A stretch of 64,000 nt of DNA. Source: Acidovorax sp. A79. Lineage in GTDB: Bacteria > Pseudomonadota > Gammaproteobacteria > Burkholderiales > Burkholderiaceae_C. Of this stretch, positions 30,381 to 47,044 are shown piece after piece (the stretch's first letter is position 1; every line of letters begins with the position of its first letter). A program made the position numbers and the translations under genes. Location: the NCBI RefSeq assembly GCF_041154505.1, contig NZ_AP028672.1, positions 3,512,501 through 3,576,500 of the forward strand, in the 5' to 3' direction. The notes under the pieces are model-generated. The model had not been told where the DNA came from and searched no databases. It saw only the letters and a program-made list of their open reading frames with translations.

Positions 30381-31638
30381 TGGCCTGGTTCCTTTCCCTC
30401 TTGACGATCGCGGGCTCTGCGGCCAGTGCCGCGGTGGCGGGGCGCCCGCGGCGCGGTAGCGTGCCATTGAGCACGGCGTGGGCCGCCAGGCCCACCACCA
30501 GGCCCCAGAACGCACCACCGATGCCCAACAGCGTGATGTTGGCCGCCGCAGCCAGGAAGGTGATCAGCGACGCTTCGCGCGTCTTCACGTCGGCCAGGGC
30601 AGTGGCCAAGCTGCCGCCGATGGTGCCCAGCAGCGCCAGGCCCGCCAGCGTCGTGATGAAGGTCGCCGGGAGGGCCATGAAGACGGCGGCCAGTGTGACC
30701 CCGAACACGCCTACGAGGATGTAGCTCACGCCTGCGGCGATGCCTGCAATCCAGCGCTTGGACGGATCTTCGTGCGCCTCCCGGCCCGTGGCGATGGCGG
30801 CCGTGATGGCGGCCACGTTGAAGGCATGCGAACCGAACGGCGCCATCAGCAGCGAGCCGAGCCCGGTCAGCGCCACGATGGGATTGGCGCTGGTCTTGAA
30901 CCCGTCATTGCGCAGCACCAGCATGCCGGGCATGTACTGGCCGGTCAGCGTGATGAGAAACAGCGGCAAGGCCACGCTCAGCAACGCGTTGAGCGAGAAC
31001 GCCGGCATGGTGAAGACCGGGGCGGCGAGCCTCAACGACAGTCCCGACAGGTCCACCCGGTCCTGCATGAGCAGAAAGAGCAGGCCCAGCGCCAGGATGC
31101 CCACGACGGCATAGCGTGCACTGAGCCGCTTGAGCACCAAGTAGGTCGCGATCAGCAAGCCAGCCAGTACCGGATCGATGCCCATGCCGCCGAAAGCCTG
31201 GATGCCGAACTGCAGCAGGATGCCCGCGAGCAAGCCTGCGGCCACGCCCGGAGGAATCAGCCGGATCAAGCGGTCGAACCAGCCTGACAGCCCCAGCGCC
31301 ACAAAGGCCGCGGCAGAGATCAGGTACGCGCCCACCGCTTCGGCATAGGGCGTGGTCGCCAGCGCCGTCACCAGGAACGCTGCAGCCGGCGTGGACCACG
31401 CGGTAATGATCGGCTCGCGCGTCCGCCAGCTCAGCACCAGCCCCGTGACACCCACGCCAATCGAGATCGACCACACCCACGATGCCGTCAGCTCCGGGCT
31501 CAGGCCTGCCACCCTGGCCGCCTGGAACACGAGAATGAAGGTACCGCCGTAGTTGACGATGACGGAAATGAGGCCCGCAACAATGGGATGGGCGAGATCG
31601 GACCAGCGGGAAGAGGAGGCGGGCGGTGGGGACGGCAT
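30373..31638 (-). CDS. benE: BenE-family benzoate/H+ symporter-like transporter
   Basis: 421 residues from ATG 31638. About 11-12 hydrophobic segments with family motifs such as SVIVNYGGTFILVFQAARVAGL, PIITAWSTPAAAFLVT and GQYMPGMLVLRNDGF. BenE proteins import benzoate, but many relatives act on other aromatic acids or nucleobases, so the substrate here is open. No ben/cat genes are nearby. It is divergent from the MocR-type regulator with direct repeats between the two. Confidence 0.8.
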   Translation of the reverse strand: MPSPPPASSSRWSDLAHPIVAGLISVIVNYGGTFILVFQAARVAGLSPELTASWVWSISIGVGVTGLVLSWRTREPIITAWSTPAAAFLVTALATTPYAEAVGAYLISAAAFVALGLSGWFDRLIRLIPPGVAAGLLAGILLQFGIQAFGGMGIDPVLAGLLIATYLVLKRLSARYAVVGILALGLLFLLMQDRVDLSGLSLRLAAPVFTMPAFSLNALLSVALPLFLITLTGQYMPGMLVLRNDGFKTSANPIVALTGLGSLLMAPFGSHAFNVAAITAAIATGREAHEDPSKRWIAGIAAGVSYILVGVFGVTLAAVFMALPATFITTLAGLALLGTIGGSLATALADVKTREASLITFLAAAANITLLGIGGAFWGLVVGLAAHAVLNGTLPRRGRPATAALAAEPAIVKRERNQANA

Positions 31639-31720
31639 GTGGGATCGGGGCTCCTGAAAGTGGCGCCATGGAGCGGGCCATGGTGCTGATTTATAGACTT
31701 GAAATGGCATACTGTGCCCA

Positions 31721-31756
31721 GCCAATTTTTCAATGAGATACCGGCCAATTGTTCAA
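31721..31756. promoter_or_regulatory. MocR-type direct-repeat operator (GCCAATT-T/G-TTCAA x2)
   Basis: GCCAATTTTTCAA (31721-31733) and GCCAATTGTTCAA (31744-31756) are direct repeats differing at one base, with starts 23 bp apart, about two helical turns. MocR/PdxR regulators typically bind direct repeats in divergent promoters. The second repeat overlaps the predicted TTG start of the regulator. Confidence 0.7.
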
Positions 31757-33233
31757 GCATGCGCAACTTGAATCCGTGAAAGCCTGGGTGCTCGATCCAG
31801 CGCATGGCGCTTTGCCCCTGCACGCGCGCATTCAGCGCGCCATCCGGCAACTCATCCTCGACGGTGCGCTGGAGGTGGGGGCACCGCTGCCTGCGTCGCG
31901 CGCACTGGCAAAGTCGCTGGGCCTGTCTCGCGACACGGTGGAGGCGGCATACAGCCAGCTGCATGCCGACGGGTTTATCGAACGGCGCGTGGGCAGCGGC
32001 AGCTTCGTTTCGGAGAGGGCTCAGCGTTTGCGGGGGCGGGGCACGGGGCGGCGCCCTGCGGCACGGCGGGAACCTCTGCGGTTGAGCCAGCGCGGATCGG
32101 CCATGTTCCGCGGCGGTGGGGTGCGGGACTTTCTGGCTCCCCGCCCGTTCGCTCCCGGCGTGCCGGAAACGCGCGGCTTCCCGCTGGCCACCTGGGAGCG
32201 GCTGGAGCGGCAGGTGCTGAAGGACTGGGGCACCACGGCACTGCTGCACAGCCCACCGCAAGGGATGGAGCCGCTACGGCGTGCGATTGCGAACTACGTC
32301 AATCTCGAACGCGGCGCGCATGCCACGGCCGAGCGTGTGCTGGTGCTCACCAGCTCCCAGCAGGCCCTGACCCTGTGCGCTACCGTGCTGCTGGACGCTG
32401 GCGACCGCATCTTCGTTGAAGACCCCGTGTACCACGGCGCGCGCAAGGCGTTCGACGCCGCGGGGCTGGAATGTGTGCCCGTGCCGCTGGATGGGGAGGG
32501 AATGCGGGTGGAGCCTCTGCGCAAGGCGCGGCAACCGGGCAAGGCGGTGTTTCTCACGCCTTCGCATCAATTTCCGACCGGAGCGACCCTGGCGCTGGAC
32601 CGGCGGCTGGACATCATCGAATGGGCCCGGCAGCACCAGGCCTGGATCATCGAGGATGACTACGACAGCGAGTTCCATTACGCGGGCAAGCCCACGGCCT
32701 GCGTGCAGGGCCTGGACCCGAACCAGCGAACGATCTACATCGGCACATTCACGAAGTCGATGTTTCCGGGCTTGCGCATTGCCTTCATGGTGCTGCCGCC
32801 CGAACTCGTGGCTCCGATGACCGCCGCACGCACCCTGCTGGATGGCCACAGCGCGCCGATTCCGCAACTGACCCTGGCGCGCTTCATGGAGGGTGGCCAT
32901 TTCGGGGCCCACGTGCGGACCATGCGTGCCGTCTATTGTGAGCGGCGCGATGCCCTGGAACTGCTCGTGCGCAGGCACCTGGCGGACTTCGTCGAGCCTG
33001 AAGTGCCGGACGGCGGCATGCAAATGCCCTGCCGGTTCATTCGCGACATTCCCGAGCTGGAAGCCATGGGCGCAGCGCAGCGTGCCGGTATCGATCTGCT
33101 GGGACTGACGCCATTGCATGCAGCGGGCACGAGCCGGGCCGGATTCCTCATGGGATTTGCCGCGTATGCGCCGAAGGAACTGGAGACCGCTGTGAAGAAG
33201 CTCGCGCAGGTGTTGCGCACGCTGGATCGTTGA
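31749..33233 (+). CDS. MocR/PdxR-family transcriptional regulator (GntR HTH + aminotransferase fold)
   Basis: 494 residues from TTG 31749. Residues ~20-85 are a GntR-type winged HTH (LHARIQRAIRQLILDGALEVGAPLPASRALAKSLGLSRDTVE), and residues ~115-494 are a class I aminotransferase-like domain with SSQQALTLCATVL and GTFTKSMFPGLR, the latter containing the PLP lysine. It likely senses PLP or a PLP-amino-acid adduct and controls the divergent benE-yggS-amidotransferase operon. The start could be a downstream GTG, because the TTG lies inside an operator repeat. Confidence 0.86.
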   Translation: MFKHAQLESVKAWVLDPAHGALPLHARIQRAIRQLILDGALEVGAPLPASRALAKSLGLSRDTVEAAYSQLHADGFIERRVGSGSFVSERAQRLRGRGTGRRPAARREPLRLSQRGSAMFRGGGVRDFLAPRPFAPGVPETRGFPLATWERLERQVLKDWGTTALLHSPPQGMEPLRRAIANYVNLERGAHATAERVLVLTSSQQALTLCATVLLDAGDRIFVEDPVYHGARKAFDAAGLECVPVPLDGEGMRVEPLRKARQPGKAVFLTPSHQFPTGATLALDRRLDIIEWARQHQAWIIEDDYDSEFHYAGKPTACVQGLDPNQRTIYIGTFTKSMFPGLRIAFMVLPPELVAPMTAARTLLDGHSAPIPQLTLARFMEGGHFGAHVRTMRAVYCERRDALELLVRRHLADFVEPEVPDGGMQMPCRFIRDIPELEAMGAAQRAGIDLLGLTPLHAAGTSRAGFLMGFAAYAPKELETAVKKLAQVLRTLDR

Positions 33234-33611
33234 AGGCGGCCGCCCAGTCCGTGGCTGGGAAGGTTTCGGATCCGTCGAGGTTGCTGCCGAAGCCCCATGG
33301 CCATTCTGTGGATGCGCAGCGCGGCCATCCACCCGCAGCGACACCCCCCAGCCGCAAGGCGCCCAGCGTATGGGGGCGGTCTGTCGGCTCATTGGCCACC
33401 GGCACGGGCCGGACAAGCCCGGGGTTGTCTTTCCTTCAGGCACATGCCGCGTCCGGGGTGAACGCGGGCGCAGGGCATCACCGCGCGGCATGTGCGGATT
33501 TCCAGCCTCTCCGGTTTTTTGGGATGGATTTTCATCCAGGAATGCGGGAAAGGTGCCGCCATGGAAATGGAAATCTCTTTGAAATCAATGACTTCCAAGG
33601 ATGGCGCCGTG
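33234..33611. other. Long upstream region of the pga operon with a 12-bp inverted repeat
   Basis: No gene is evident in these 380 bp. A perfect 12-bp inverted repeat, GCACATGCCGCG (33440-33451) and CGCGGCATGTGC (33484-33495), is spaced by 32 bp, with arm centres 44 bp apart. It lies 120-175 bp upstream of the sigma54 promoter, the distance at which NtrC-family enhancers are found, so it is the best candidate regulator site. Confidence 0.5.
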
Positions 33612-33627
33612 TGGCACATGCGTTGCT
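33612..33627 (+). promoter_or_regulatory. Sigma54 (-24/-12) promoter for the pga operon
   Basis: TGGCAC-ATGCG-TTGCT fits the consensus TGGCAC-N5-TTGCW exactly in spacing and in the GG and GC elements. The orientation is toward pgaA, and the predicted transcription start is about 12 bp downstream, leaving a leader of about 260 nt. A sigma54 activator (DctD-like) is encoded at the end of the same cluster. Confidence 0.75.
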
Positions 33628-33700
33628 AGATGGACATTCGTTGATCGGTTCATCGATTGCAGAAATGGATGTCGTGTGAACCATCTTCTCGCGTGATTTC

Positions 33701-33724
33701 AAGCCGCCATGAACAAGGCGGCTT
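33701..33724 (+). other. Leader hairpin upstream of pgaA
   Basis: AAGCCGCC (33701-33708) pairs with GGCGGCTT (33717-33724) around an 8-nt loop. It lies in the presumed sigma54-derived leader, about 180 nt before the pgaA start. No T-run follows, so it is more likely an RNA-stability or regulator-binding element than a terminator. Confidence 0.4.
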
Positions 33725-33900
33725 CGTCCAACACAGGTTCAGGAACCCCCATCTCCATGCTGTCACACCCCAAGCCGCACGCCCCTCCACCCTGCCTCCA
33801 CCCGTCTTGCCAGGCAGTCATCGGCGATGACGGCGAGCGCCTGGGGCGTGCATGGGCGCCGCGCACTGCTGCCAAATTCCATCGATAGCCGGATTGCCGA

Positions 33901-36528
33901 GTGCCAGTCCTCCAACAAGACGGCGGATCGTTTGCCGCGGAACGGCCATCCGGGGCTGTCGGGGCAGTTCCGCTGCGGCATCGAAGGTGGTCGAAGGCTT
34001 TCCCTCCCATCGCCTGCGCATTGATGCTGGGTGCCTCGGTGGCATTCGCGAACCCGGCGGACTCCACCCCAGCTGCCACGGACCGCAGTTCCATGGCCTA
34101 TGACCCGCAGCGGCATGATGCCTTGATCCTGGCGCACCGCGGGGGGCATGTCCCCCCGGCCCAAGCGCTGCAGCAGTTGAAGGACTGGCTCGACGTGCCA
34201 TTGAGCGACAGCGTGCGCCAGCGTCTGGTCTCCGACGCCGTCGTGATGGCGACCGCCGGTGGTCAGTTCGCCGAAGCCGTGACATTGGGACGCCAGCAAA
34301 CCCCGGCGGGGTTGAGCGACTACGCGCTGGAGACGCTCGCCGTGGCCGCGCGGCGCGTGCAGGACACCGCGTTGCAAGGCGACACCATCAGCATCTGGCG
34401 CGCGCGGCAGCCGCAGGCGCTCGGACCCCGCATCCACGAAGCTTTCTGGCGCCTCGACAGCGGAGATGTCGTGGGCGCGAAAACAATCAGCGAGGCGCTC
34501 ATGCGGAAAGCGGCAGAGCACATCGAAGTCCGTGTCGCGCTGCTGGAGTTGCGCGCTGCCGTGGCCCGCGCCGAAGACCAGCCACTGATCGCGATGGCCG
34601 CCTACGCCGAGGCCGGTGCGCTGCGCCCCGAGCGCCTGGACATTCGCCGCGAGGCCGACTTTCTGCTCGCCGACAACGGCGCGGCGCCTACCGCCTTCGA
34701 CGACGCCGAAGCGGCCGCAGGGAAAAACCCCGGCGCCTTTTCCGCGCTGGCGCTGTCCATGCTGCAGCAGAAGGCACTGGCCCAGCGGCTGCGCTGGGCC
34801 CTCCAGGAGCGCGACCAACGCCGGGGCGTGGCGCGCGTGGTCGCACTCGACAAGGTGCTGGCCGGCCAGGAGGCCGCCCTGGTCCGGCTCGAAGCCGCGG
34901 CGCAGCAGGCCCACGGCGCGGACGCCGAGGCCTGGCGCGTGCTGCGCAGGAATCTTGAGTCCGATCGGCTGCTCGCGCTGGTGGAGCGCGGCCGTCCCGG
35001 GGACGCCGTCGCGCTCTACGAAACCCTGAGCTTGGCGGGCATCGACCTGCCGTTCCACGGACTCGCCGCGGCGGCCCGCGCTTTCGCGCAGGAGCGCCGT
35101 TCGGCCGAGGCCGTGCCCCTGTATGAGGCCGCCATCGCGAAGGGCGGGGCGGACGTGCCGATGCCGGGCGAAATCCACTTCGGCCTGGTCTATGCCTATC
35201 TGGACACCGGCCGCTTCGAACAGGCTGAAGCCCTGCTCAAGCGGCTCGAGGAGAGCACGCCGGCGCTCACGCGCCTGGCACCCGAACCTGGCCGGCCCAA
35301 CAGCCAATACACCGAGGTGATTGGCATGCGTGCGCTGATGCAGCTTTACACCGACCGGCTCGCGCTTGCTCAGCAGAGCTTCACGGCGCTGACGCTGGAC
35401 GCGCCGCTCAACGCGGGCTATGCCCTTGGCGCCAGTCTCACCGAGCGCTTGCGCGAACGCCCCGAGGCCGGGCTCGCGCGCCTTGAGGCGCAGATGGCGG
35501 ACCATCCCGACGACATCGGCATGCGCGTCGGCCATGTCGAGGCGCTGCTCGGTGCGGGCTGGTTCGGCGAAGCCCGCCAGCGCGCCGCATCGCTGGTGGC
35601 CGATGTTCCCGACAGCCTGCAGGTGCGCGACATGGAACGCAAGCGCGATACCCTCACCGGTGCGCGGCTTGAGGTCGACGCCGCGGCGTCGCGTGGTGGC
35701 GCCGTGATCGCCAGCAGCGAGTGGCGCATCGACAGCCGGCTGAGTTCGGGACTCATCGCAGACCAGTGGCGCGTGTTCTACGACCAGTCGCTCGCCCAGG
35801 GCAGCACCGAGGCCGGCAACGCCAAAAGGGTCCGTGGTGGCCTCGGCCTGCGCTGGCAGCGCGGTCCCTGGGTGGCCGAAGGTGCTCTGCAGCATGCCGC
35901 TGCCGGCCCCTACCGCAACGGGATGGCCGGTCGCGTCGATTACCGCGCCAGCGATGCCTGGCGGCTGTGGGCTGCCTACGATGGCGACAGCAAGGAACTG
36001 CCCTGGAAAGCGCGGGTGGCTGGCACAGGCGCGCGCGAGATGGCGGGCGGCGTGGGCCATGTGGTGAACGAGGCGCGCCGCTTCAACCTGCAGTGGCAGC
36101 GCCTGGATTTCAGCGACGGCAATGTGCGCAGCGGCCTGGGCCTGGGCTGGACCGAGCGCTGGGTCAGCACGCCGCGCGTCCAGGCCGAGACCCGGCTCGA
36201 GGCCGGCACGGGCCGTGGCCGCGTGCTGGACACGCCGTACTTCAACCCGCCGCGCGATGCCAGCGTGCGGCTTGCGGCGCGGGCCCAATGGCTCACGTGG
36301 AAGAGCGACGACCGGCAGTTCTTCCAGGCCATCGAGGTCGGTGGCGGCAACTATCACCAGCGCGGCTTCGGCAGCGGCCCGATGTGGAGCCTGCGCTATG
36401 AACACAGCTGGAGCCTGGGCCAGCGGCTCACGCTGCGCTACGGCCTGGGCATCGCCAGCCATCCCTACGACGGCGTGCGCGAACGACAGCGCAGCGTCTT
36501 TCTGAACTTCTCGATGCCCCTGCAGTGA
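33901..36528 (+). CDS. pgaA: PgaA, outer-membrane PNAG export porin with TPR domain
   Basis: 875 residues from GTG 33901, the only in-frame start that keeps the positively charged n-region (RHRRWSK) before the hydrophobic signal segment ending ASVAFA. The YDPQRHDALILAHRGG stretch matches the start of the periplasmic TPR superhelix. Degenerate TPR repeats fill about residues 60-540, and a C-terminal beta-barrel of alternating aromatic strands ends in FLNFSMPLQ. It exports deacetylated poly-beta-1,6-GlcNAc through the outer membrane. The start is the least certain part of the call. Confidence 0.85.
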   Translation: MPVLQQDGGSFAAERPSGAVGAVPLRHRRWSKAFPPIACALMLGASVAFANPADSTPAATDRSSMAYDPQRHDALILAHRGGHVPPAQALQQLKDWLDVPLSDSVRQRLVSDAVVMATAGGQFAEAVTLGRQQTPAGLSDYALETLAVAARRVQDTALQGDTISIWRARQPQALGPRIHEAFWRLDSGDVVGAKTISEALMRKAAEHIEVRVALLELRAAVARAEDQPLIAMAAYAEAGALRPERLDIRREADFLLADNGAAPTAFDDAEAAAGKNPGAFSALALSMLQQKALAQRLRWALQERDQRRGVARVVALDKVLAGQEAALVRLEAAAQQAHGADAEAWRVLRRNLESDRLLALVERGRPGDAVALYETLSLAGIDLPFHGLAAAARAFAQERRSAEAVPLYEAAIAKGGADVPMPGEIHFGLVYAYLDTGRFEQAEALLKRLEESTPALTRLAPEPGRPNSQYTEVIGMRALMQLYTDRLALAQQSFTALTLDAPLNAGYALGASLTERLRERPEAGLARLEAQMADHPDDIGMRVGHVEALLGAGWFGEARQRAASLVADVPDSLQVRDMERKRDTLTGARLEVDAAASRGGAVIASSEWRIDSRLSSGLIADQWRVFYDQSLAQGSTEAGNAKRVRGGLGLRWQRGPWVAEGALQHAAAGPYRNGMAGRVDYRASDAWRLWAAYDGDSKELPWKARVAGTGAREMAGGVGHVVNEARRFNLQWQRLDFSDGNVRSGLGLGWTERWVSTPRVQAETRLEAGTGRGRVLDTPYFNPPRDASVRLAARAQWLTWKSDDRQFFQAIEVGGGNYHQRGFGSGPMWSLRYEHSWSLGQRLTLRYGLGIASHPYDGVRERQRSVFLNFSMPLQ

Positions 36529-38624
36529 TGTTCGCAAAGAACACCTTCCCCTTCCTGCGGGCCGCCATGCCATGGCTGCTGATCGGGCTTGCGCTGTGCG
36601 CGCTGTCCCGGCTTGCGCCCGCCCAACCGCTGCCGCCGGCTGACCCCGACGATGGCGTGAGCTTTCGCGTGATCTCGTTCCATGACGTGCGCACCGGCGT
36701 GCGCGCCAGTTTCGAGAGCTCGCCCGATGCCACCGCCATTGACGACCGCACGCTCGTGGAGGTGTTCGCCTGGCTGCAGTACAGCGGCTACCACCCGGTG
36801 AGCCTGCAGCAGATCATCGACGCGCGTGCGGGCGGCCGGCCCCTGCCCGTCCGGCCCGTGCTGTTGACCTTCGACGACGGCTACCGCAGCGCCTACACCA
36901 AGGTGTTTCCGCTGCTCAAGCGCTACGGGTACCCGGCGCTGTTCGCGCTGGTGACGAGCTGGCTCGAGGTGCCCGAAGGCCAGCCGGTGCACTGGGGCGA
37001 CAAGCCGGCGCCGCGCGAGAACTTCCTGCTCTGGCGCGAGGCCGCCGAAATGGCGCGCTCGGGCCTGGCCGAGTTCGCCAGCCACAGCGATGCCATGCAC
37101 ATGGGCATCCAGGCCAACCCGCAGGGGAACATGCTGGCGGCCGCCGCCACGCATCGCTACGATCCCGGGACCGGCCGCTACGAAGAAGATGCCGCCTACC
37201 TGCACCGCATCGAGACCGACCTGCGCCGCAGCCGGGAGATCATCGAGGCGCGCACCGGCGCCAGGGTCCGCGCCACCGTCTGGCCTTATGGCGCCTACAA
37301 CGCGATGGCGCTGCGGGCCTCCGAGCGCGCGGGCATGCCGATCACCTTCACGCTGGACGATGGCCCCAATACGGCCGCCGTGCCGCTCGCACGCATCCGC
37401 CGCGCGCTGGCCGTCTACGACAATGCGGCGCCCGAATACGCCCAGCTCCTGCGCAGCCCTGCGGGCGGCGAGACGCGGCCTGTCAACCGCGTGATGCACG
37501 TGGACCTTGACTATGTGTACGACCCCGATCCGGGACAGCAGGAGCGCAACCTTTCGGCACTGATCGAGCGTGTGGCCGCCGTGCGGCCGCGCTCGGTGTT
37601 CCTGCAGGCCTACGCCGACCCCGATGGCGACGGCGTGGCCGATGCCATGTACTTCCCGAACCGCCATCTGCCCGTGCGCGCCGACCTGTTCGGCCGCGCT
37701 GCCTGGCAGCTGCGCAGCCGCGTCGGCGTGAAGGTCTATGCCTGGATGCCGGTGATGGCCTACCGTCTGCCGGCTTCGCATCCGCTGTCTGCCCATACGG
37801 TGATGACGCGGGGCGGCAAGGCGCCGGCCGACCGCTATCACCGGCTCACGCCCTTCCATCCGGCGGTGCGCACGCTGATCGGCGACATCTATGAAGACCT
37901 GGGCCGCTACACCTTCTTCGATGGCCTGCTGTTCCACGACGACGCAATGCTGGCCGACGACGAGGACGCCTCTCCCGACGCGCTGTCCGCCTACGCCCGC
38001 TGGGGCCTGCCGCCCGACGTGGGCGCCATCCACTCCGATCCGGCGCTGCGGTCCCGCTGGACCACCGCCAAGACCCGCCACCTCATCGAGTTCACCCAGG
38101 AGCTCCTGGGCCGGGTGGGCGCCTGGCGGCCGACGCTGGAAACCGCGCGCAACCTGTACGCCCGGCCCGTGCTCGAACCCGAGGCGGAGCAATGGTTCGC
38201 GCAAAACTACGAAGCATCGCTCGCGGCCTACGACTATGTTGCGCTGATGGCCATGCCGCGCATGGAGCGCGAGAGCGATGCCCAGGGCTGGCTTGCCCGG
38301 CTGGCGCGCCGCGCAGCCGACACCCCCCGTGGCCTGGACGGCACCGTGTTCGAATTGCAGGCCCGCGACTGGCATACCGGAAAGCCCGTGCCCAACGACG
38401 AGCTCACGCGCCAGTGGGCGCAGCTGCAGCGCGCAGGCGTGCGGCACCTGGGCTACTACCCGGATGACTTTCTTGGCAACCATCCCTCGCTCGACACGGT
38501 GCGCCGCGCGATCTCGGTGCGCAAGCTGCTGCCGCGCGCGCTGCGCTCGCCGGCGGGTGCCGCGGCGACGGTCCCTCCACAGACGGGGCCTGCGGTCCCT
38601 GCGCAGGCCGGGGAATCCCGATGA
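36528..38624 (+). CDS. pgaB: PgaB, PNAG N-deacetylase / glycoside hydrolase
   Basis: 698 residues from ATG 36528, whose A is the last base of the pgaA stop. The N-terminal polysaccharide-deacetylase (CE4) domain has the metal-binding aspartates in LLTFDDGY (about D116/D117) and histidines H186 and H191 in the ASHSDAMHM segment, the same four-residue spacing as the E. coli enzyme. The C-terminal half (about residues 310-640) is the GH153-type domain. The signal end LALCALSRLAPAQ lacks a good lipobox, so unlike E. coli PgaB it may be a soluble periplasmic enzyme. Confidence 0.9.
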   Translation: MFAKNTFPFLRAAMPWLLIGLALCALSRLAPAQPLPPADPDDGVSFRVISFHDVRTGVRASFESSPDATAIDDRTLVEVFAWLQYSGYHPVSLQQIIDARAGGRPLPVRPVLLTFDDGYRSAYTKVFPLLKRYGYPALFALVTSWLEVPEGQPVHWGDKPAPRENFLLWREAAEMARSGLAEFASHSDAMHMGIQANPQGNMLAAAATHRYDPGTGRYEEDAAYLHRIETDLRRSREIIEARTGARVRATVWPYGAYNAMALRASERAGMPITFTLDDGPNTAAVPLARIRRALAVYDNAAPEYAQLLRSPAGGETRPVNRVMHVDLDYVYDPDPGQQERNLSALIERVAAVRPRSVFLQAYADPDGDGVADAMYFPNRHLPVRADLFGRAAWQLRSRVGVKVYAWMPVMAYRLPASHPLSAHTVMTRGGKAPADRYHRLTPFHPAVRTLIGDIYEDLGRYTFFDGLLFHDDAMLADDEDASPDALSAYARWGLPPDVGAIHSDPALRSRWTTAKTRHLIEFTQELLGRVGAWRPTLETARNLYARPVLEPEAEQWFAQNYEASLAAYDYVALMAMPRMERESDAQGWLARLARRAADTPRGLDGTVFELQARDWHTGKPVPNDELTRQWAQLQRAGVRHLGYYPDDFLGNHPSLDTVRRAISVRKLLPRALRSPAGAAATVPPQTGPAVPAQAGESR

Positions 38625-39898
38625 CCTCCGGCCCGTGGCTCGTCCAGGCGCTGCCCTCGCTGCTCTTCGGTTTCGTTTTCTACTACCCGTTCTTCATGGC
38701 GTGGGTGTGGATGGCCGGCGGCCTTTCGCACGCGTGGGCGTTCGAACGCAAGGACGACGTAGAGACCGACCCTTTGCTGGCATTGCCCTCGCGGCCGTTC
38801 GTCACGGTGGTGGTCCCTTGTTTCAATGAGGCGCCTCACCTGCGAGAAGTGATCGAGCAGCTGATGCGCACGCGCTACCCGAACTATGAAGTGATCGCCG
38901 TCAATGATGGCAGCACCGATGGAACTGGCGAGCTGCTCGACGCGATGACGCTGGAGTTCAGCCGCCTGCGCGTGATCCACAACGCCAGCAACCAGGGCAA
39001 GGCCGTCGGCCTCAACACCGCGAGCCAGCTCGCGCGCGGCGAGTACATTCTCGGCATCGACGGGGACGCGCTGGTGGACCCCAACGCCATCGCCTGGATG
39101 CTGCGGCGCATGCTGGTCTCGGACCGCATTGGCGCCGTCACGGGCAACCCGCGCATCCGTACGCGCACCACGCTGCTCGGGCGCATGCAGGTGGGAGAGT
39201 TCTCCTCGATCATCGGTCTCATCAAGCGCTCGCAGCAGCTTGTCGGCACGCTGTTCACGGTGTCCGGCGTGCTCGCCATGTTCCGCCGCCGCGCGGTACT
39301 CGAGGTGGGCTTCTGGAGCCCCGATGTGCTCACCGAAGACATCGACATCAGCTGGAAGTTGCAGCTCCTTGGCTGGCGGCTGCGGTTCGAGCCGCGCGCG
39401 CTGTGCTGGATTCTGATGCCGGAAACCCTGCGCGGCCTCTGGAAACAACGCCTGCGCTGGGCGGTGGGCGGTATCCAGACCATACTGCGCATCACGCCCT
39501 CCATCCTGCGTCTGCGCAGCTGGCGCCTGTGGCTCATCTATGGCGAATACATGGCGAGCGTGGTGTGGGCCTACGCGATGGCGATCGTGCTGCTGATCAG
39601 CGCGATGCGTCCGCTGCTGCCGCAGGAGTCGGTCTGGCACTCCACGCTTCTTCCGCACTGGCAAGGCACGCTGCTGGCCATGACCTGCATCCTGCAGATG
39701 CTGCTGAGCCTGTGGATCGACCGGCGCTACGACCGCGATCTCATGCGCTATTTCGCGGGAACGATTTGGTATCCGATCGCATTCTGGACCATCACGATGA
39801 CCACCACCGTGGTCGCGCTTCCCAACGCTCTGATGCGCCGCCGCGGCAAGCGCGCTGTGTGGACGAGCCCCGACCGAGGAGTCTCCGATGTCTCATGA
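38621..39898 (+). CDS. pgaC: PgaC, inner-membrane PNAG glycosyltransferase
   Basis: 425 residues, overlapping pgaB by 4 nt. This is a GT2 family processive synthase with VVPCFNE, D96 in VNDGST, the D147-x-D149 metal motif, the catalytic-base aspartate D240 in TEDIDIS and Q276-xxRW (QRLRW). Flanking membrane segments are at the N-terminus and C-terminal to about residue 310. It polymerises UDP-GlcNAc into poly-beta-1,6-GlcNAc, with PgaD as partner. In E. coli, c-di-GMP binds PgaC/PgaD. Confidence 0.92.
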   Translation: MTSGPWLVQALPSLLFGFVFYYPFFMAWVWMAGGLSHAWAFERKDDVETDPLLALPSRPFVTVVVPCFNEAPHLREVIEQLMRTRYPNYEVIAVNDGSTDGTGELLDAMTLEFSRLRVIHNASNQGKAVGLNTASQLARGEYILGIDGDALVDPNAIAWMLRRMLVSDRIGAVTGNPRIRTRTTLLGRMQVGEFSSIIGLIKRSQQLVGTLFTVSGVLAMFRRRAVLEVGFWSPDVLTEDIDISWKLQLLGWRLRFEPRALCWILMPETLRGLWKQRLRWAVGGIQTILRITPSILRLRSWRLWLIYGEYMASVVWAYAMAIVLLISAMRPLLPQESVWHSTLLPHWQGTLLAMTCILQMLLSLWIDRRYDRDLMRYFAGTIWYPIAFWTITMTTTVVALPNALMRRRGKRAVWTSPDRGVSDVS

Positions 39899-40469
39899 GC
39901 CTGACGACCATTCCCTGCCGCCCGCGCCGCACGCCGACGTGCGCCCACCGAGCCGGCGGCATTCCTGGGGGCAGCCAGTGGGCGAGGAGCCGATCATCGA
40001 TGCCGCCCGGGTTTCGCTGCAGGCGTTCGGCGCGGGCCGGTCGCCGCGGCGCACGCTCGCCATATACCTCTGGCTGCGCGTGCTGCGCCCTGCGCTCACC
40101 CTTGCGATCTGGTTCTGTGCGGTCTGGTACGCTTGGCCCTATGTGCTCAATGCCCGCTCGCAGCCCGAAGTGCTACATCTGCTTGGCCTGTACGCGGCAG
40201 TGATCGCCGCGATCCTTGTATCGATGTTGGTGGTGGCACCGTGGCGCCGCCGCCAGCATGAACGCGAGGCGCCATCCACCCATGAGCCATCGTCGCTGTC
40301 CGCATTGGCCTCCTACATTGACGTGCCGCCCGCCCGCCTGTCGTCCTGGCAGCGCACGCGGCAGCTGCTGGTTCACCACGACCATGAAGGGCAGCTCAGG
40401 GATGCCACCGACACCACCCCCGGGGAGCTGGAGCCCGAGCCCCCTGCATCGCGCCGGGGACGGCGCTGA
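39888..40469 (+). CDS. pgaD: PgaD, PNAG synthase accessory protein
   Basis: 193 residues overlapping pgaC by 11 nt. Two transmembrane helices (LWLRVLRPALTLAIWFCAVWYAW and LLGLYAAVIAAILVSMLVV) follow a hydrophilic ~70-residue N-terminus, and a cytoplasmic C-terminus carries RRRQHERE. The size and topology match PgaD, which stabilises PgaC in response to c-di-GMP. The N-terminus is longer than in E. coli. Confidence 0.85.
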   Translation: MSHEPDDHSLPPAPHADVRPPSRRHSWGQPVGEEPIIDAARVSLQAFGAGRSPRRTLAIYLWLRVLRPALTLAIWFCAVWYAWPYVLNARSQPEVLHLLGLYAAVIAAILVSMLVVAPWRRRQHEREAPSTHEPSSLSALASYIDVPPARLSSWQRTRQLLVHHDHEGQLRDATDTTPGELEPEPPASRRGRR

Positions 40470-40519
40470 TGGAAGAATGGGCCTGCGCCGTGCAGGCAGG
40501 TTGACCCCACGGATCGCCC

Positions 40520-42424
40520 ATGACGACACCCCGCAATGCCTCTTCGCTGCGGGTCTTGCCTGCGGCGGATCCGCTGCGCGATGCATCCTCGGGCGATCTC
40601 TCGATACCCGCCCGGGCGGGCACGACGCTCCGCTGGCGGTGGCGCCACGTTGTCGTGCTGGCGGCATGCGCGCTGTGCGGCGCGGTCGCCTATGTGGCCA
40701 CCTTCACTTTCTATCGGGAAGAACAGGCCCGGGGCGCCGCGAAACGCCTCGAGTTTGTCGTGCTCAGCCTGCAGGCGCTCGTCCATCGCAACGAAGCCCT
40801 GCCAGGCATCATCGGACTCAAGTCAACGCTTGGCTCGCTGCTGGACACGAACACGCTGGCGGCCCAGGCCGCCGCCAACGCGTATCTTGAAACGGTGGCG
40901 AAGGCCTCCGGCATTTCTGCCGTCTACCTGCTGGATGCCGGCGGGACGACGCTGGCTTCGAGCAACTGGAACCAGGTGCTGACCTTCGTTGGCGAGAACT
41001 ACGCCTATCGGCCTTACTTCAAGGATGCGATGGCGGGCCGCACCGGGCGCTTCTACGGCATCGGATCCACCACCGGCGAAGCCGGCTACTTCCTGGCGGC
41101 CGGCGTGGTGGCGCCGGGCGGCGCCCGCGGTGTGATCGCGGTCAAGCTCTCGCTCGAAAAGTTCGAGGAAGCCATGCGGCAGAGCACCGACGTGGTGATC
41201 CTCACGGACCGCGAGGGCGTGGTCATTCTCAGCTCCGTTCCCGAGTGGCGGTACCGCACCGTCGCCGCGCTCGCACCGGCCGCGCGCGAGCGCATCCGGC
41301 AATCGCGGCAGTATGGGGACCTGCCACTGCTCGCGCTGCCCGGGCCGGGGCTGGATTTCACCCGGTCCCACGCAACGCTCGCGCTTGAAGGGGGCATCAC
41401 GCACTACACCATGGCGACCCATGCGAGCGAAGATCTGGGTTGGCGTGCCGCACTTCTGGTGGACCAGGCACCCTCGCGCCGCGCCGCCGTCCTGGCCGCA
41501 CTGGCCGCCACCTCCGTCGCCGCCTTCCTGGGGGCGCTCACCGTCGGCTTTCAGGAAGGCCGGTATCGCCGTGAGGAGATGCGCAAAGCCAAGCGCGCGC
41601 TGGTGGAAGCGAGTGCCCGGCTCGAGCAGCGCATCATCGAGCGCACGGCGGATATCAGCCAAGCCAATGCCTCGCTGGAACGCAAGATCGAAGAACTGCG
41701 CCGTACCGAGGCGATTCTTCATGAGACGCGGGACGGTGCGGTGCACGCGGGCAAGCTCGCCGTGCTCGGGCAGATGTCTGCGGGCATGGGCCACGAGCTC
41801 AGCCAGCCGCTCACCGCGCTGCGGACCCTGTCGGACAACGCGATCACGCTGCTTGACGGCGCGCGCCTGGAAGAGGTGCGCGAGAACCTTCACCTCATCA
41901 GCGAACTCACCGCCCGCATGGGGCGCATCATGGCGCTGCTCAAGGCCTTTGCCCGCGCCGACAGCACCAGCCTCGAACCCGTGGCCATGGACATGGCGAT
42001 CCATCATGCGCTCATGCTCGTAGAGTCTCGGCGGTGCGAGGTGCGGGCGGATATCCTGGTCAGCTCAACGCTGGCGACCCGCCCGGTGCGGGCCGACGCC
42101 ACCCGGCTCGAACAGGTGCTCGTGAACTTGATGCGCAACGCGCTCGACGCGGTCGAGTCCCGGGCGGAGCGCCTGGTGAGGGTGGCGGTCCGGCAAAAGG
42201 GGCGCCATGCCGTCATCTCCGTCAGCGACACGGGCGGCGGCATCGCGCCAGAGGCCATGCAACGGCTGTTCGAACCGTTCTACACCACCAAGCCCGCGGG
42301 CGCGGGGCTGGGTCTTGGGCTCGCCCTTTCGCAAAGCATCGTCGAGAGCTTCGGCGGGCGCATCGAAGCGCGCAACCTGGACCGGCAGGGCGCGCTCTTC
42401 ACCATCACGCTGGAGGTCTATTGA
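40520..42424 (+). CDS. DctB-like sensor histidine kinase
   Basis: 634 residues. TM1 is near residues 44-64 and TM2 near 325-345. They enclose a periplasmic double-PAS/CACHE region (YRPYFKDAMAGRTGRFYGIG, SLEKFEEAM), the type that binds C4-dicarboxylates or similar ligands in DctB. The cytoplasmic part has a coiled-coil, the phospho-acceptor H425 in GHELSQPLTALR and HATPase motifs (LMRNALDAV, DTGGGI, GLGLALSQSIVESFGG). It starts 50 bp after pgaD and is coupled to the response-regulator gene. No dctA/dctPQM transporter genes are present. Confidence 0.88.
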   Translation: MTTPRNASSLRVLPAADPLRDASSGDLSIPARAGTTLRWRWRHVVVLAACALCGAVAYVATFTFYREEQARGAAKRLEFVVLSLQALVHRNEALPGIIGLKSTLGSLLDTNTLAAQAAANAYLETVAKASGISAVYLLDAGGTTLASSNWNQVLTFVGENYAYRPYFKDAMAGRTGRFYGIGSTTGEAGYFLAAGVVAPGGARGVIAVKLSLEKFEEAMRQSTDVVILTDREGVVILSSVPEWRYRTVAALAPAARERIRQSRQYGDLPLLALPGPGLDFTRSHATLALEGGITHYTMATHASEDLGWRAALLVDQAPSRRAAVLAALAATSVAAFLGALTVGFQEGRYRREEMRKAKRALVEASARLEQRIIERTADISQANASLERKIEELRRTEAILHETRDGAVHAGKLAVLGQMSAGMGHELSQPLTALRTLSDNAITLLDGARLEEVRENLHLISELTARMGRIMALLKAFARADSTSLEPVAMDMAIHHALMLVESRRCEVRADILVSSTLATRPVRADATRLEQVLVNLMRNALDAVESRAERLVRVAVRQKGRHAVISVSDTGGGIAPEAMQRLFEPFYTTKPAGAGLGLGLALSQSIVESFGGRIEARNLDRQGALFTITLEVY

Positions 42425-43779
42425 TGCCCGTGCCACCCATCCCTGCCGACGAAAGGCCGCGAGTTCTCCTCGTGGATGACGAGCCCGCCGTGCGGCGCGG
42501 CCTCGAGCAAGCCATGGTGCTTGCCGGCATCACCGTGAAGGCGGTCGGCAGCGCGGAGGCCGCGCTGGATGTTTTCGAGGACGTGCAGCCGTGGGCCGTC
42601 GTGAGCGACGTCAAGTTGCCCGGCATGGATGGCCTGGAGCTGCTCAACAGATTGCGCCAGCATGATCGTGAAGTCGCGATGGTTCTCATCACCGGGCACG
42701 GGCACGTCGCCATGGCGGTGCAGGCAATGCGCGAAGGCGCCTACGACTTCATAGAGAAGCCGTTTTCCTCGGAAACGCTGGTCGGCGTCGTGCGCCGGGC
42801 CGTCGAGCGGCGCGTGCTGCTGGAAGAAAACCGGCGCCTGCGCGAGCGCTTGCCTTGCGAAGAGGGGCGTCCGCTCATTGGCCAGACACCCGCCATGCAG
42901 CGTGTCCGCCAACTGGTTCGCGCACTGGCGGCGACCAACGTGGATGTCCTGATCGCCGGAGAGACGGGCGCGGGCAAGGAGGTCGTGGCACGGGCGATTC
43001 ATGCCGCCAGCGGCCGCAGCGGTCCCTTTGTTGCGCTCAACTGCAGCGCCCTGCCAGAGAGCGTCATCGAGAGTGAAATCTTCGGCCACGAGGTGGGTGC
43101 CTTCACCGGCGCGGCCAAGCGGCGCGTGGGGCGCATCGAGTTCGCCAACAAAGGCACGCTGTTCCTCGATGAAATCGAGTCGATGCCGCTCTCCGTTCAA
43201 CTGAAGCTGCTGCGGGTGCTGCAGGAGCGCGAGATCGAACGGCTGGGCAGCAATGTCTCCATACCCGTCGATTGCCGCGTGCTCGCCGCCGTCAAGGGGG
43301 ACCTCAAGGCCATGACGGCGGCAGGCCGATTCCGCGAGGATTTGTTCTACCGGCTCAATGTGGTGACGATCGACGTCCCGCCATTGCGCGATCGCATGCC
43401 GGACATCCCGCTGCTCATGGCCCACTTCCTGCGCGAGTTCGCCCAACACCACGGCATGGCGCAACCGGAATGGAGCGATGACGACCTGCGCCGCTGGAAG
43501 GCCCACCGGTGGCCCGGCAATATCCGCGAGCTGCGCAACGTTGCCGAGAGGCTTTGCCTGGGCCTGCCCGACGGGCTTTCGCAAGCCGATCCGCCGCCGG
43601 TTTCTACGTCGCTCACCGCGCGCGTGGACGAAACAGAGGCCGCGCTGATACGTGAAGCGCTTCGCCAGGCACGGGGCCGCGTGGCCCAGGCCGCCGAGCA
43701 GCTCCATCTCCCCCGAAAGACGCTGTACGACAAGTTGCGCCGGCATGGCCTGGTGGCAAGAGACTTCCTGCGCGGCTAG
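42424..43779 (+). CDS. DctD-like sigma54-dependent response regulator
   Basis: 451 residues. The receiver domain has phospho-acceptor D62 in VVSDVKLPGMDG. An AAA+ sigma54-activator domain has Walker A GETGAGKE (179-186), the sigma54-contact loop GAFTGA (225-230) and Walker B LFLDEIE. The C-terminal Fis-type HTH is QAAEQLHLPRKTLYDKLRRHG. Its ATG overlaps the kinase stop (TGATG), so the two are translationally coupled. It is the likely activator of the sigma54 promoter in front of pgaA. It may also act on distant C4-dicarboxylate genes. Confidence 0.9.
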   Translation: MPVPPIPADERPRVLLVDDEPAVRRGLEQAMVLAGITVKAVGSAEAALDVFEDVQPWAVVSDVKLPGMDGLELLNRLRQHDREVAMVLITGHGHVAMAVQAMREGAYDFIEKPFSSETLVGVVRRAVERRVLLEENRRLRERLPCEEGRPLIGQTPAMQRVRQLVRALAATNVDVLIAGETGAGKEVVARAIHAASGRSGPFVALNCSALPESVIESEIFGHEVGAFTGAAKRRVGRIEFANKGTLFLDEIESMPLSVQLKLLRVLQEREIERLGSNVSIPVDCRVLAAVKGDLKAMTAAGRFREDLFYRLNVVTIDVPPLRDRMPDIPLLMAHFLREFAQHHGMAQPEWSDDDLRRWKAHRWPGNIRELRNVAERLCLGLPDGLSQADPPPVSTSLTARVDETEAALIREALRQARGRVAQAAEQLHLPRKTLYDKLRRHGLVARDFLRG

Positions 43780-43953
43780 GGTCCCGCTGCGCACGGAAGT
43801 CCCCATCGCACAGTCTTCTTCGCTCTATGGTGGCATTCCACGCCCTCTGGATCGCCACCGCTGTCGCTGCGGTGGATGCCTTGTGCTGGCGCCATCGGCC
43901 CTGAACCGGTGCCAACGATCCCGTGGCGGCTGGCTCGCGCGGAGGGCGGGGTG

Positions 43954-45921
43954 TCAGCCCTGCTTGTGCAGCGGCAGCCACAGCGTGAAGGTGGAACCTT
44001 GCGCCTGGGCGCCGTCACTGGTGCTCCAGGTGCAATGCGCGCCCAGCGCCAGCGCGCGGCTGTGCACGTTGGGCAGGCCCCGGCGGGCGGGCGCCAGCGC
44101 CTCGGACGCCGGGGGGCTGAATGGACGGCCGTTGTCCCGTATGCACACCTGCACGCCGCGCGTGCCATCGCCGCCGCCCTCTGGCGGGGGCCAGACGGCC
44201 TCGGCCGTGCTCAGCACGATCTCCGTCGCGCCACTGTGCTTGAGGATGTTGGTGAGGATCTCCTGCAGGATGCGCAGCACGTGCAGCGCGTTTTGCGCGT
44301 CCAGCCAGGGCAGCGGCGGCAGGTCGTCCACCTGCCAGTGCATGACCAGTCCCGCGCCCTCCAGCCGCAACCCGAGCCGATAGCGCAGGCCGGCCAGCAG
44401 TGCCAGCAGATCCGCATTCACGGGCTCCAGTGAGTCGATGGAGATCTTCAGGTCGTCGATGCACTCCCGCAGCACCTGCGCCACGTCCACGGGTGCCGCC
44501 GGCGCAGTCTCTACCAGCCGCAGTGCGCTCATCAGCGAGGAACCCACGCCGTCGTGCATCTCCCGCATCAGGCGCTGGCGCTCGTGCAGCAGCGTCTGCT
44601 CGCGCTCGGCGGCGCGCAGCAGCTCGTGTGTTTCGCGCAGCTGCAATTCCTGCGCGGCCAGGCGCTCGGCCTGCACGGCGTTGGCTTGCTCGGCGACTTC
44701 CAGCGCCCGGTGGTAGCGCGTGAAACCGACCAGCAGGAACATGGTGAACACGCCCATGTACACGTAGGGCGTGAGGTAGATGTGCTCGATGCTGATGCGG
44801 TAGCGCTGCATCGCCAGGTCGTGGACGGCCAGGGGGAACGAGAGCGCCACGGCCCCCGCCAGCAGCACGCTGGACCAGGAGCGTTCGCGCCACGCGCCCA
44901 GCGCCGCCACGCACAGCACCACCAGGGCCGGAGGAAACAGCGCCAGGCGCAACAGCGGCAGCATCGCCTCGTGCCGCAGGTCCCACAGTGGCAGGGCCGC
45001 CAGCGCCACCAAGCCGCAATAGGCGACCACGGCGCGCGCCAGCCGCGGATAGCCCCGGCCCAGCATCCGGCACAACAGGAAGAAGGAGCAGGCCGACGAC
45101 CCCAGCGAGCCCACGAGCGTGAGCCAGGAGAACCATTCATCGGGCACGCCGAAGCCCTCGGCATCGACCAGGTAGAACAGCGTGGCCAGCAAGTGCCCCA
45201 CCGACAGCAGGAAGAACAGCAGGTAGCCCGCCTCGCCCCGGCCGCGCCGCACCAGCCACACCGCCAGCGCGAACACACCCAGCACGAGGTAGGCACCGCG
45301 CAGGTAGGCCACCAGGTCGGTCTGCAGCAGGCTGCGCAGCCGCCACCCCGGCCAGAGCGCCTCGGCCGGCCCGGCCCACACGCTGGACAGCGCGCCGCCC
45401 ACGCCGGGCAGGTTGGCCATGCGCACATGCACCTCCAGGGGAACGCCGGGCGCAGCATGGCCCGCCAGGTCCACCCACACCGGGCGGTTGAAGCTGTTCC
45501 AGACCCGGCTGCCGTGCGACTGCCAGACGAGGTGCCCATCGGCATACACCGCCACCGTGCCCACTGTCTGCCAGCGCGGGATGTACAGGCGCGTGCCCTG
45601 GGGCGTGGCGGCGAGCGCCTCGCCCGGCACCCGCAGGCGGTACCACCACACCTCGGGTGGCGCATCGGCCTGCGCGGCTGTCGAGACCGTGCTGCGTGCG
45701 CGGGCATGTGGCAGGTCCACCGTGCTCCACGGTATGGTGCTCGAAAGCACTGCATCGGGTGATTCGTGCAGCGAGGGCGGCGGCGCCCAGCCCCCGCTGG
45801 CGGGATTCCACGCCTGCGCCTGCACCAGGTGCGCGGGCAGCACGCCTGCCAGCGCCGCGCCCCCGGCGGCGGCACCGGCCAGCAAGAACCGCAGCGCCAG
45901 GCGCGCGAGATCAAGCCACAT
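43954..45921 (-). CDS. 7TM-type sensor histidine kinase (HisKA_3 / NarX-like)
   Basis: 655 residues with a signal-like N-terminus and a long periplasmic beta-rich sensor (about residues 35-190, DISMED2-like). About seven hydrophobic segments follow (about 205-400). A coiled-coil precedes the phospho-acceptor H456 in MREMHDGVGSSLM, and a HATPase_c domain ends with GLPNVHSRALAL. This is a 7TMR-DISM architecture. It overlaps the response-regulator gene by 11 bp. The cue is unknown. Confidence 0.86.
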   Translation of the reverse strand: MWLDLARLALRFLLAGAAAGGAALAGVLPAHLVQAQAWNPASGGWAPPPSLHESPDAVLSSTIPWSTVDLPHARARSTVSTAAQADAPPEVWWYRLRVPGEALAATPQGTRLYIPRWQTVGTVAVYADGHLVWQSHGSRVWNSFNRPVWVDLAGHAAPGVPLEVHVRMANLPGVGGALSSVWAGPAEALWPGWRLRSLLQTDLVAYLRGAYLVLGVFALAVWLVRRGRGEAGYLLFFLLSVGHLLATLFYLVDAEGFGVPDEWFSWLTLVGSLGSSACSFFLLCRMLGRGYPRLARAVVAYCGLVALAALPLWDLRHEAMLPLLRLALFPPALVVLCVAALGAWRERSWSSVLLAGAVALSFPLAVHDLAMQRYRISIEHIYLTPYVYMGVFTMFLLVGFTRYHRALEVAEQANAVQAERLAAQELQLRETHELLRAAEREQTLLHERQRLMREMHDGVGSSLMSALRLVETAPAAPVDVAQVLRECIDDLKISIDSLEPVNADLLALLAGLRYRLGLRLEGAGLVMHWQVDDLPPLPWLDAQNALHVLRILQEILTNILKHSGATEIVLSTAEAVWPPPEGGGDGTRGVQVCIRDNGRPFSPPASEALAPARRGLPNVHSRALALGAHCTWSTSDGAQAQGSTFTLWLPLHKQG

Positions 45922-46657
45922 CGATCCACCCTTTGCGCGCCGCGGCGCTCACCGCTTCGGCCTGGGTCGTCACCTGCAGCTTGGCGTACACGCGCCGCAC
46001 GAAGGTACGCACCGTGTGGCGCGACACGCCCATCGCCCGCGCCACCTCGTCCAGTGTGTAGCCGCGTGCCACCATGCGCAGCAACTCGGCCTCGCGCGCC
46101 GAAGGTGCCACCTCCGTGATCTCCGCCGCCGCCAACCCCGGCTCCAGGCCCGCTGACGGCTTGGCTGTCACGGGAGACTGCGCGCGGCGCAGCAGCAGCT
46201 TGCGCGCCACCATCGGATTGATGGGGCTGCCCCCCGCATGCAGGCTGCGCACTTCGTCCACGACGGCGCTGGGTGGCAGGTCCTTGAGCAGGTAGCCCAT
46301 CGCACCGGCCTCGATGGCGCCCAGAACATGCGCCTCATCGCCAAAGATCGTGCTCACCATGGCCGCCGCCCCGGGCCAGCGCGCGCGCAGCACGGCCAGC
46401 ACGTCGAGCCCGCTGCCATCGGGCAGCCCCAGGTCCAGCAGCAGCACGTCCAGCGGCGCATCGTCCGCCTGCAGCGCCGCCAGCGCTTCGGCGCGGCTGG
46501 CCGCCACCCACTGCAGATGCATGTCGGCCGCGCCTTGCAAGGCATGCGCCAGCGCGTTGCGGCAGACGAAGTCGTCCTCCACCACCGCCACGCGAATGGC
46601 AGGGGGCGCAGGCGCCGCATCCGGCGCCCAGGGAGTTGTGCGAGGAAGGGAAACCAT
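45911..46657 (-). CDS. NarL/LuxR-type response regulator
   Basis: 248 residues from ATG 46657. Receiver domain with acidic pocket VEDDF and phospho-acceptor D75 in LLLDLGLPDGSG, and a C-terminal LuxR HTH (SAREAELLRMVARGYTLDEVARAMGVSRHTVRTFVRRVYAKL). It is the first gene of the operon with the 7TM kinase. A plausible target is the divergent gene for the IPTL-CTERM surface protein, about 390 bp away (inference). Confidence 0.9.
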   Translation of the reverse strand: MVSLPRTTPWAPDAAPAPPAIRVAVVEDDFVCRNALAHALQGAADMHLQWVAASRAEALAALQADDAPLDVLLLDLGLPDGSGLDVLAVLRARWPGAAAMVSTIFGDEAHVLGAIEAGAMGYLLKDLPPSAVVDEVRSLHAGGSPINPMVARKLLLRRAQSPVTAKPSAGLEPGLAAAEITEVAPSAREAELLRMVARGYTLDEVARAMGVSRHTVRTFVRRVYAKLQVTTQAEAVSAAARKGWIDVA

Positions 46658-47044
46658 GCGCCGATGCTGCCACAGGCCCAGGTCAAAAGCGCCGGGCCTG
46701 GCGGGGCTGCTGTGCCCGGCAGGCCGGCTGCGCCAGCCGGTACGGTGGCAAGCGGCGGATCATGTTCGGTTCTTCGGGCTGCATGCGGGGTCGGTGGGTT
46801 TCTGCATGGGTTCAAGGTCGTCAATGCGCGCCCATTCGGCGGGTGCTCTGTCCATGCTGCCATCCCCCGGGGCCCTTGTCATGTCGCCCAAACGGGGGAC
46901 ATACAAAACCGTGCCCATCCGGTAACTTCCGGTCCCGCAAGCAGGGGCCTGCGCCTGAATCCACAAGAACACGGTGGCCGACACCGTTCCATCCAGGGCA
47001 AGCCCGAGCGGCTTTTCTCGAACGCACCACGGAGTGAGGAATAC
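46658..47044. other. Divergent promoter region between response regulator and IPTL-CTERM gene
   Basis: About 390 bp with no recognisable gene. A GGAGTGAGGAATAC ribosome-binding region lies just before the ATG at 47045. No clear operator could be named by eye. Confidence 0.4.

Follow-up and report, generated by a model that had tools for sequence, protein, structure and literature searches.

DctB/DctD-type two-component systems are known to control transport and, in Vibrio vulnificus, exopolysaccharide synthesis. According to excerpts of two reports, DctB2/DctD2 of V. vulnificus activates two exopolysaccharide clusters on dicarboxylates, with RpoN-dependent starts (PMC9040800, PMC11077940). 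Here we describe a 64-kb stretch of the Acidovorax sp. A79 genome (positions 3512501-3576500 of contig 1, genome 5.87 Mb; the “window”), in which pgaABCD, the operon for the polymer poly-N-acetylglucosamine (PNAG), lies between a sigma54 (RpoN) promoter element and the genes of a DctB-like kinase and a DctD-like regulator. By comparison of sequences, which establishes the genes and the sites, how these match the relatives, and that related pga loci have neither pair nor site, we consider it probable (roughly 0.7) that a Variovorax-type pgaABCD operon has come under a DctB/DctD-type system. The V. vulnificus system resembles this locus in its DctB/DctD-type pair, its sigma54 promoter, the upstream DctD-type sites, which are putative here, and the exopolysaccharide output, dicarboxylate induction being a V. 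vulnificus result. It differs in that its clusters are not pgaABCD and dctB2D2 is named as an operon of its own, whereas in the window kinase and regulator follow pgaD directly and are read the same way. The original prediction, made from the letters of the window, held that control of exopolysaccharide by a DctB-type sensor would be unusual; such control is already known from V. vulnificus, but the locus is unusual in its pgaABCD target and in the encoding of the regulators in the same cluster.

Other described systems share single aspects of the arrangement. The rhizobial DctB/DctD-dctA system has the same kinase sensor and regulator architecture, and its enhancer, TGTGCGgaaatCCGCACA (the DctD binding sequence as quoted in the excerpt of PMC11077940), resembles the site at 33491 discussed below; its output, however, is a transporter rather than pgaABCD. 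MifS/MifR of Pseudomonas aeruginosa are likewise DctB/DctD homologues, depend on RpoN and affect biofilm, with mifR mutants forming no microcolonies, but their known output is alpha-ketoglutarate transport, and passages of the report contain no link to pga (PMC4482717). In Burkholderia cenocepacia, BerB with RpoN (PMC5552954) and NtrC (PMC5491218) act on exopolysaccharide, as excerpts of both papers describe. BerB is also a sigma54 activator near an exopolysaccharide cluster, but, in the same excerpt, it is without an N-terminal input domain, binds cyclic di-GMP (c-di-GMP) and acts via berA on the bep genes (PMC5552954). In a comparative study, sigma54 is linked with exopolysaccharide genes generally (PMC3162934), and in a table for P. 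fluorescens PF07 the pgaABCD row is blank for the rpoN mutant (PMC9207406), both as far as the excerpts extend. A literature search, with subscription journals mostly outside its coverage, returned among the papers listed no report of pgaABCD or PNAG under sigma54/RpoN or dctB/dctD, or of pgaABCD in Acidovorax.

All four PNAG genes are present in order, with equivalog matches over the NCBIfam cut-offs (Table 1), and the GTG start of pgaA at 33901 is backed by the N-termini of Variovorax PgaA proteins. The sigma54 element, TGGCACATGCGTTGCT, points at pgaA and ends 273 bp before this GTG. Its score of 29/30 (consensus count against TGGCACG-N4-TTGCW) is the highest of any sigma54-like site in the window, and 29 is reached by only 0.13% of 3000 order-1 resamplings of 33234-33900. 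The predicted element upstream of pgaA is confirmed in this respect, and on the (+) strand; from its position, transcription is expected to start near 33638. The genome has a single copy of rpoN. An isolated match of this kind is no proof, since TGGCACN5TTGCW occurs 13 times genome-wide against 4 for the reversed control.

The kinase ATG (40520) lies 50 bp after the pgaD stop, and the regulator gene (start 42424) overlaps the kinase stop; these positions and the domains bear out the earlier reading of a kinase and a DctD-like activator with GAFTGA following pgaD by 50 bp. The best solved relatives of the kinase’s periplasmic part (residues ~83-279) are the DctB sensor domains 3by9, 2zbb and 3e4o (E 6e-35 to 2e-32), and the sensor aligns to succinate-binding DctB. 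Among Pfam models, HATPase_c is over its cut-off, while dCache_1 (44.6, cut-off 45) is barely under and HisKA (26.1, cut-off 26.9) just short. The protein thus combines a DctB-type periplasmic double-Cache/PAS sensor with a histidine kinase core, and the regulator has the DctD-type architecture, with a receiver that matches DctD (1qkk/1l5y). Both are named by likeness, because neither reaches an NCBIfam cut-off among the 25 models shown. Relatives may bind acids other than C4-dicarboxylates.

The operon beside the pair is pgaABCD, and linkage to a carboxylate transporter was not found. Queries for SDF/DctA, MFS, TAXI, DctM and Peripla_BP_6 gave no matches in the window at E 1e-3, so that the earlier statement that no dicarboxylate transporter is near stands for these five types. 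It does not extend to TctC: six TctC-like (Bug-type) binding-protein genes lie at 970-24387 of the window, 9-33 kb upstream, the nearest at ~9 kb.

Transport is what the relatives of the pair usually adjoin. We collected 25 related pairs (L138-L162), a selection, mostly the top, of matches in 101 genomes, and found no pga gene in any of these loci. One neighbour was scanned in each of 20 loci, and 17 of the 20 encode a transporter or a substrate-binding protein (sodium:dicarboxylate symporter, MFS permease read as KgtP-like, TctC, NMT1_3 and Peripla_BP_6), the exceptions being L140, L148 and L159; a TctC gene that adjoins the kinase was found later in L140 and L138. A sigma54 site of at least 27 is present at 11 of the 17 transport-type neighbours (0.25 expected from resampled sequence) and one of at least 28 at nine (0.05 expected). 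The six without a site of at least 27 include L138, where the other neighbour had been taken. Nine loci (L147, L149-L152, L154, L157, L158, L160) have the one-strand order promoter, output, kinase, regulator, which is that of the window. The closest relatives of the window pair adjoin TctC-type genes.

Upstream of their sigma54 sites, the relatives have in common an inverted repeat with the core CGG-N4-CCG, often present twice, 30-33 bp apart, which resembles the rhizobial sequence quoted in PMC11077940. Counting dyads around the 25 pair loci in a simple way did not stand out convincingly from shuffles; the motif emerged when the sigma54 sites were used to align the promoters. A matrix built from the promoters of 12 relatives, with the window excluded, has its top match of the whole 64 kb at 33491-33508 (site 1, TGTGCGGATTTCCAGCCT), 121 bp before the sigma54 site of pga. 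The left half of site 1 equals the rhizobial DctD site as the excerpt of PMC11077940 gives it. Site 2 (GGGATGGATTTTCATCCA) begins 30 bp after site 1. For a tandem DctD-type layout with a -24/-12 element, site 1 and the promoter are good candidates and site 2 is a weak one. In leave-one-out tests, p is at most 0.01 in 10 of the 12 training promoters (L157, 0.05; L146, 0.36), and data-derived seeds lead to the same matrix, with site 1 at rank 1. A perfect 12-bp inverted repeat (33440-33451/33484-33495) was rejected as an enhancer, as it differs from the motif of the relatives. The arms of this repeat are 32 bp apart, the right arm overlaps site 1, and the 9-mer GGCACATGC of the left arm occurs again within the sigma54 element.

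Enhancer and promoter were also scored together, as a combined site that is loose (sigma54 at least 26, enhancer at least 9) or strict (28 and 11). The controls are 47 other pga loci: 10 from Variovorax (L026-L035), 10 that the initial searches gave (L128-L137) and 27 that came from searching the order and the genus (L171-L197). L126 and L127, which duplicate named Variovorax records, were left out and the sister strain was kept apart; some stretches stop at contig ends (e.g., L026, L173, L180, L189). Loose combined sites occur in 17 of the 25 pair loci (11 of the 12 training loci and 6 of the 13 others). Strict sites occur in 12 pair loci, including the held-out L138, L142 and L145, and in none of the 47 controls; the window passes (29 and 12.0). 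In one held-out locus, L145 (4979-7585), the combined site stands before a DUF6351 gene of tannase-like type, which a TctC gene adjoins.

These counts bear on whether the sites could be functionless, consensus-like sequences of a GC-rich intergenic region. Loose sigma54-like matches are common, and the controls contain four loose combined sites in 921,498 bases (L033, L183, L189, L192), none of which, by their coordinates, lies upstream of pgaA and points at it. Genome-wide, the loose pattern in one spacing range has seven matches, against none for the reversed control, and only the pga promoter scores high on both parts. With strict sites absent from the controls as well, we regard chance as highly improbable. 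Of the others, only L204 (enhancer 11.8, sigma54 25) scores fairly well; it lies inside an open reading frame on the opposite strand and was judged a chance match.

The promoter might instead be used by another activator, such as NtrC, which would tie PNAG to nitrogen or another signal. The genome encodes about ten proteins with a sigma54-activator domain, NtrC controls exopolysaccharide in B. cenocepacia (in the excerpt of PMC5491218), and pga has an NtrC-like neighbour in one control locus (L134). Site 1, however, fits the motif of the pair’s own relatives, and held-out L138 (genome G400) shares the 16-base core GTGCGGATTTCCAGCC of the window enhancer at 16 of 16 bases. The L138 regulator is 60-61% identical to that of the window, and its combined site precedes a TctC gene, as the open reading frames are read. 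Use by another activator is in our view quite unlikely.

The closest named pga operons, and the closest PgaA-D proteins, are those of the ten Variovorax loci (PgaA 60-72% and PgaC 85-92% identical to the window). Unlike the window, these loci have neither the kinase-regulator pair nor the sigma54/enhancer site, and their leader is different: a conserved block and a AAGGGAGCAGAGTG-like start region upstream of pgaA are missing in the window. DNA alignment to the ten loci does not extend upstream of 34030 beyond 20-base matches, and the upstream backbone is homologous to that of two congeners (three loci) as far as 33217-33249, roughly where a PdxR-like regulator gene stops (33233). As both alignments stop short of it, the control region (33250-33900) has no match in the Variovorax leader or in the congeners. 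No direct repeat pairing both insert ends was found in 33000-44200, and the 66 plasmid records with a PgaC relative are all below 60% identity. The predicted control of pga by sigma54 and a DctD-like activator gains independent support from the relatives’ motif being in the right place and from the absence of both site and pair in the ten Variovorax loci.

Among the wider set, PgaB is present in 5 of 47 genomes of the genus, in 12 of 399 in the family sample and in 30 of 399 in the order sample. Within the genus, the window type is found only in the window’s species (2 genomes), PgaB of the three other genus genomes being 47-49% identical. At the thresholds used, none of the 47 control loci has a kinase with the window-type sensor domain, and other kinase matches there cover the catalytic core only. 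A sigma54-type regulator occurs in two: in L185, ~5 kb from pga on the opposite strand, and in L134 (4900-14346), from another genus of the family, in which a gene read as ntrC comes after pga in the same orientation. In L135, a second genome of that genus, ntrC is not there after pga (by open reading frame calling). A general sigma54 class of pga promoters was rejected, the best score being 26/30 (L136) among 20 other pga upstream regions (the Variovorax loci and L128-L137, some with estimated starts; the 27 further loci were scanned for the combined site only).

The restriction to one species is one of several points that weigh against control by the pair. The original prediction proposed to look for conservation of the order pga, kinase, regulator, and this order was not found beyond the one species. 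In the sister strain (G144), the sites and promoter are unchanged, but with 13 substitutions and one gap in 732 aligned columns there are too few differences for an argument for selection. Site 1 has an imperfect right half, and 3% of shuffles made from the 378 bp that precede the promoter match the score of the site; for site 2, at 3.0 bits, the figure is 25% (p 0.25). Eight of the 25 pair loci are without a combined site. Site 1 also falls to rank 30 of the window when the two TctC-linked promoters are removed from training, and it is at rank 4 when these two and L147 are used alone. Such changes fit subgroup-specific half-sites: mostly GTGCGG, as in the window, for TctC-linked promoters, GGCGG for MFS-linked and mostly TTCGG for symporter-linked ones. 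Finally, the leader would be ~260 bases long, with no clear Shine-Dalgarno sequence before the GTG.

This leader also speaks for a rival reading, in which the promoter and pair are relics of a transporter locus, between which pgaABCD landed, the operon being driven mainly by another, sigma70-type promoter and the pair having its main targets elsewhere. The closest relatives of the pair adjoin TctC genes, and the promoter and pair could stem from a locus of this kind. The promoter and enhancer are nevertheless intact and point at pgaA, and in the loose genome-wide search, which covered one spacing range, no second combined site scored well in both parts. A crude sigma70 scan of 33200-34000 was empty, although it says little, being empty in two Variovorax leaders too. 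We consider a relic origin of this kind unlikely.

Table 1. Features of the pga locus (window coordinates).
Feature	Position	Strand	Evidence
Putative enhancer site 1 for the DctD-like regulator, TGTGCGGATTTCCAGCCT	33491..33508	+	12.0 bits, best in 64 kb
Weak candidate enhancer site 2, GGGATGGATTTTCATCCA	33521..33538	+	3.0 bits; second-best in 33234-33611
sigma54 (-24/-12) promoter element, TGGCACATGCGTTGCT	33612..33627	+	consensus score 29/30
pgaA, outer-membrane PNAG export porin	33901..36528	+	GTG start; TIGR03939 over cut-off; PgaA barrel
pgaB, deacetylase / GHL13	36525..38624	+	TIGR03938 over cut-off
pgaC, PNAG synthase	38621..39898	+	TIGR03937 over cut-off
pgaD	39888..40469	+	TIGR03940 over cut-off, 35.9 vs 31.45 bits
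DctB-like sensor histidine kinase, periplasmic double-Cache domain	40520..42424	+	solved-structure relatives; Pfam domains
DctD-like sigma54 activator	42424..43779	+	receiver, AAA+ with GAFTGA, Fis-type helix-turn-helix

Directly after the regulator gene, on the opposite strand, is a second two-component pair (43954-46657), a 7TMR-DISM-like kinase with a NarL/MadR-like regulator; this kinase has two more matches in the genome (59% and 50% identity). A 1230-residue protein with an IPTL-CTERM sorting signal is encoded at 46238-49930. There were no Rfam matches in 30000-47000 and no tRNA in the window.

In control by the pair, the simplest reading of the layout is that pgaABCD occupies the transporter’s slot of a self-amplifying operon of the form enhancer-sigma54 promoter, output, DctB, DctD. 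An extracellular carboxylate would bind the Cache domain of the kinase, which would phosphorylate the DctD-like regulator. The regulator would then bind the enhancer at 33491, and perhaps that at 33521, and open RNA polymerase-sigma54 at 33612 in an ATP-driven step, as in established DctB/DctD logic. Transcription of pgaABCD would lead to PNAG synthesis and export, and co-transcription of the kinase and regulator genes to positive feedback: since both genes come after pgaD and are read the same way, more kinase and regulator would be made on induction. We infer the transcription start, the protein-DNA binding, the co-transcription and the signal, perhaps a carboxylate. We lean towards the fuller version of this scheme, in which a DctB/DctD-type module has exchanged its transporter output for pgaABCD, so that an external carboxylate would directly and self-amplifyingly turn on PNAG; this would be the first sigma54-class pga operon and a case of natural output swapping.

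PgaC and PgaD of E. coli need c-di-GMP, and by analogy the polymer here might require two signals, c-di-GMP and the ligand of the pair. From the enhancer motif, targets can also be predicted for many carboxylate-sensing pairs of the Burkholderiales. If the proposed control is true, a regulatory module has swapped its output gene and kept its promoter, enhancer and regulators, and extracellular acids may turn on the polymer, which would place the widespread biofilm polymer PNAG under the direct control of an outside nutrient signal via sigma54.

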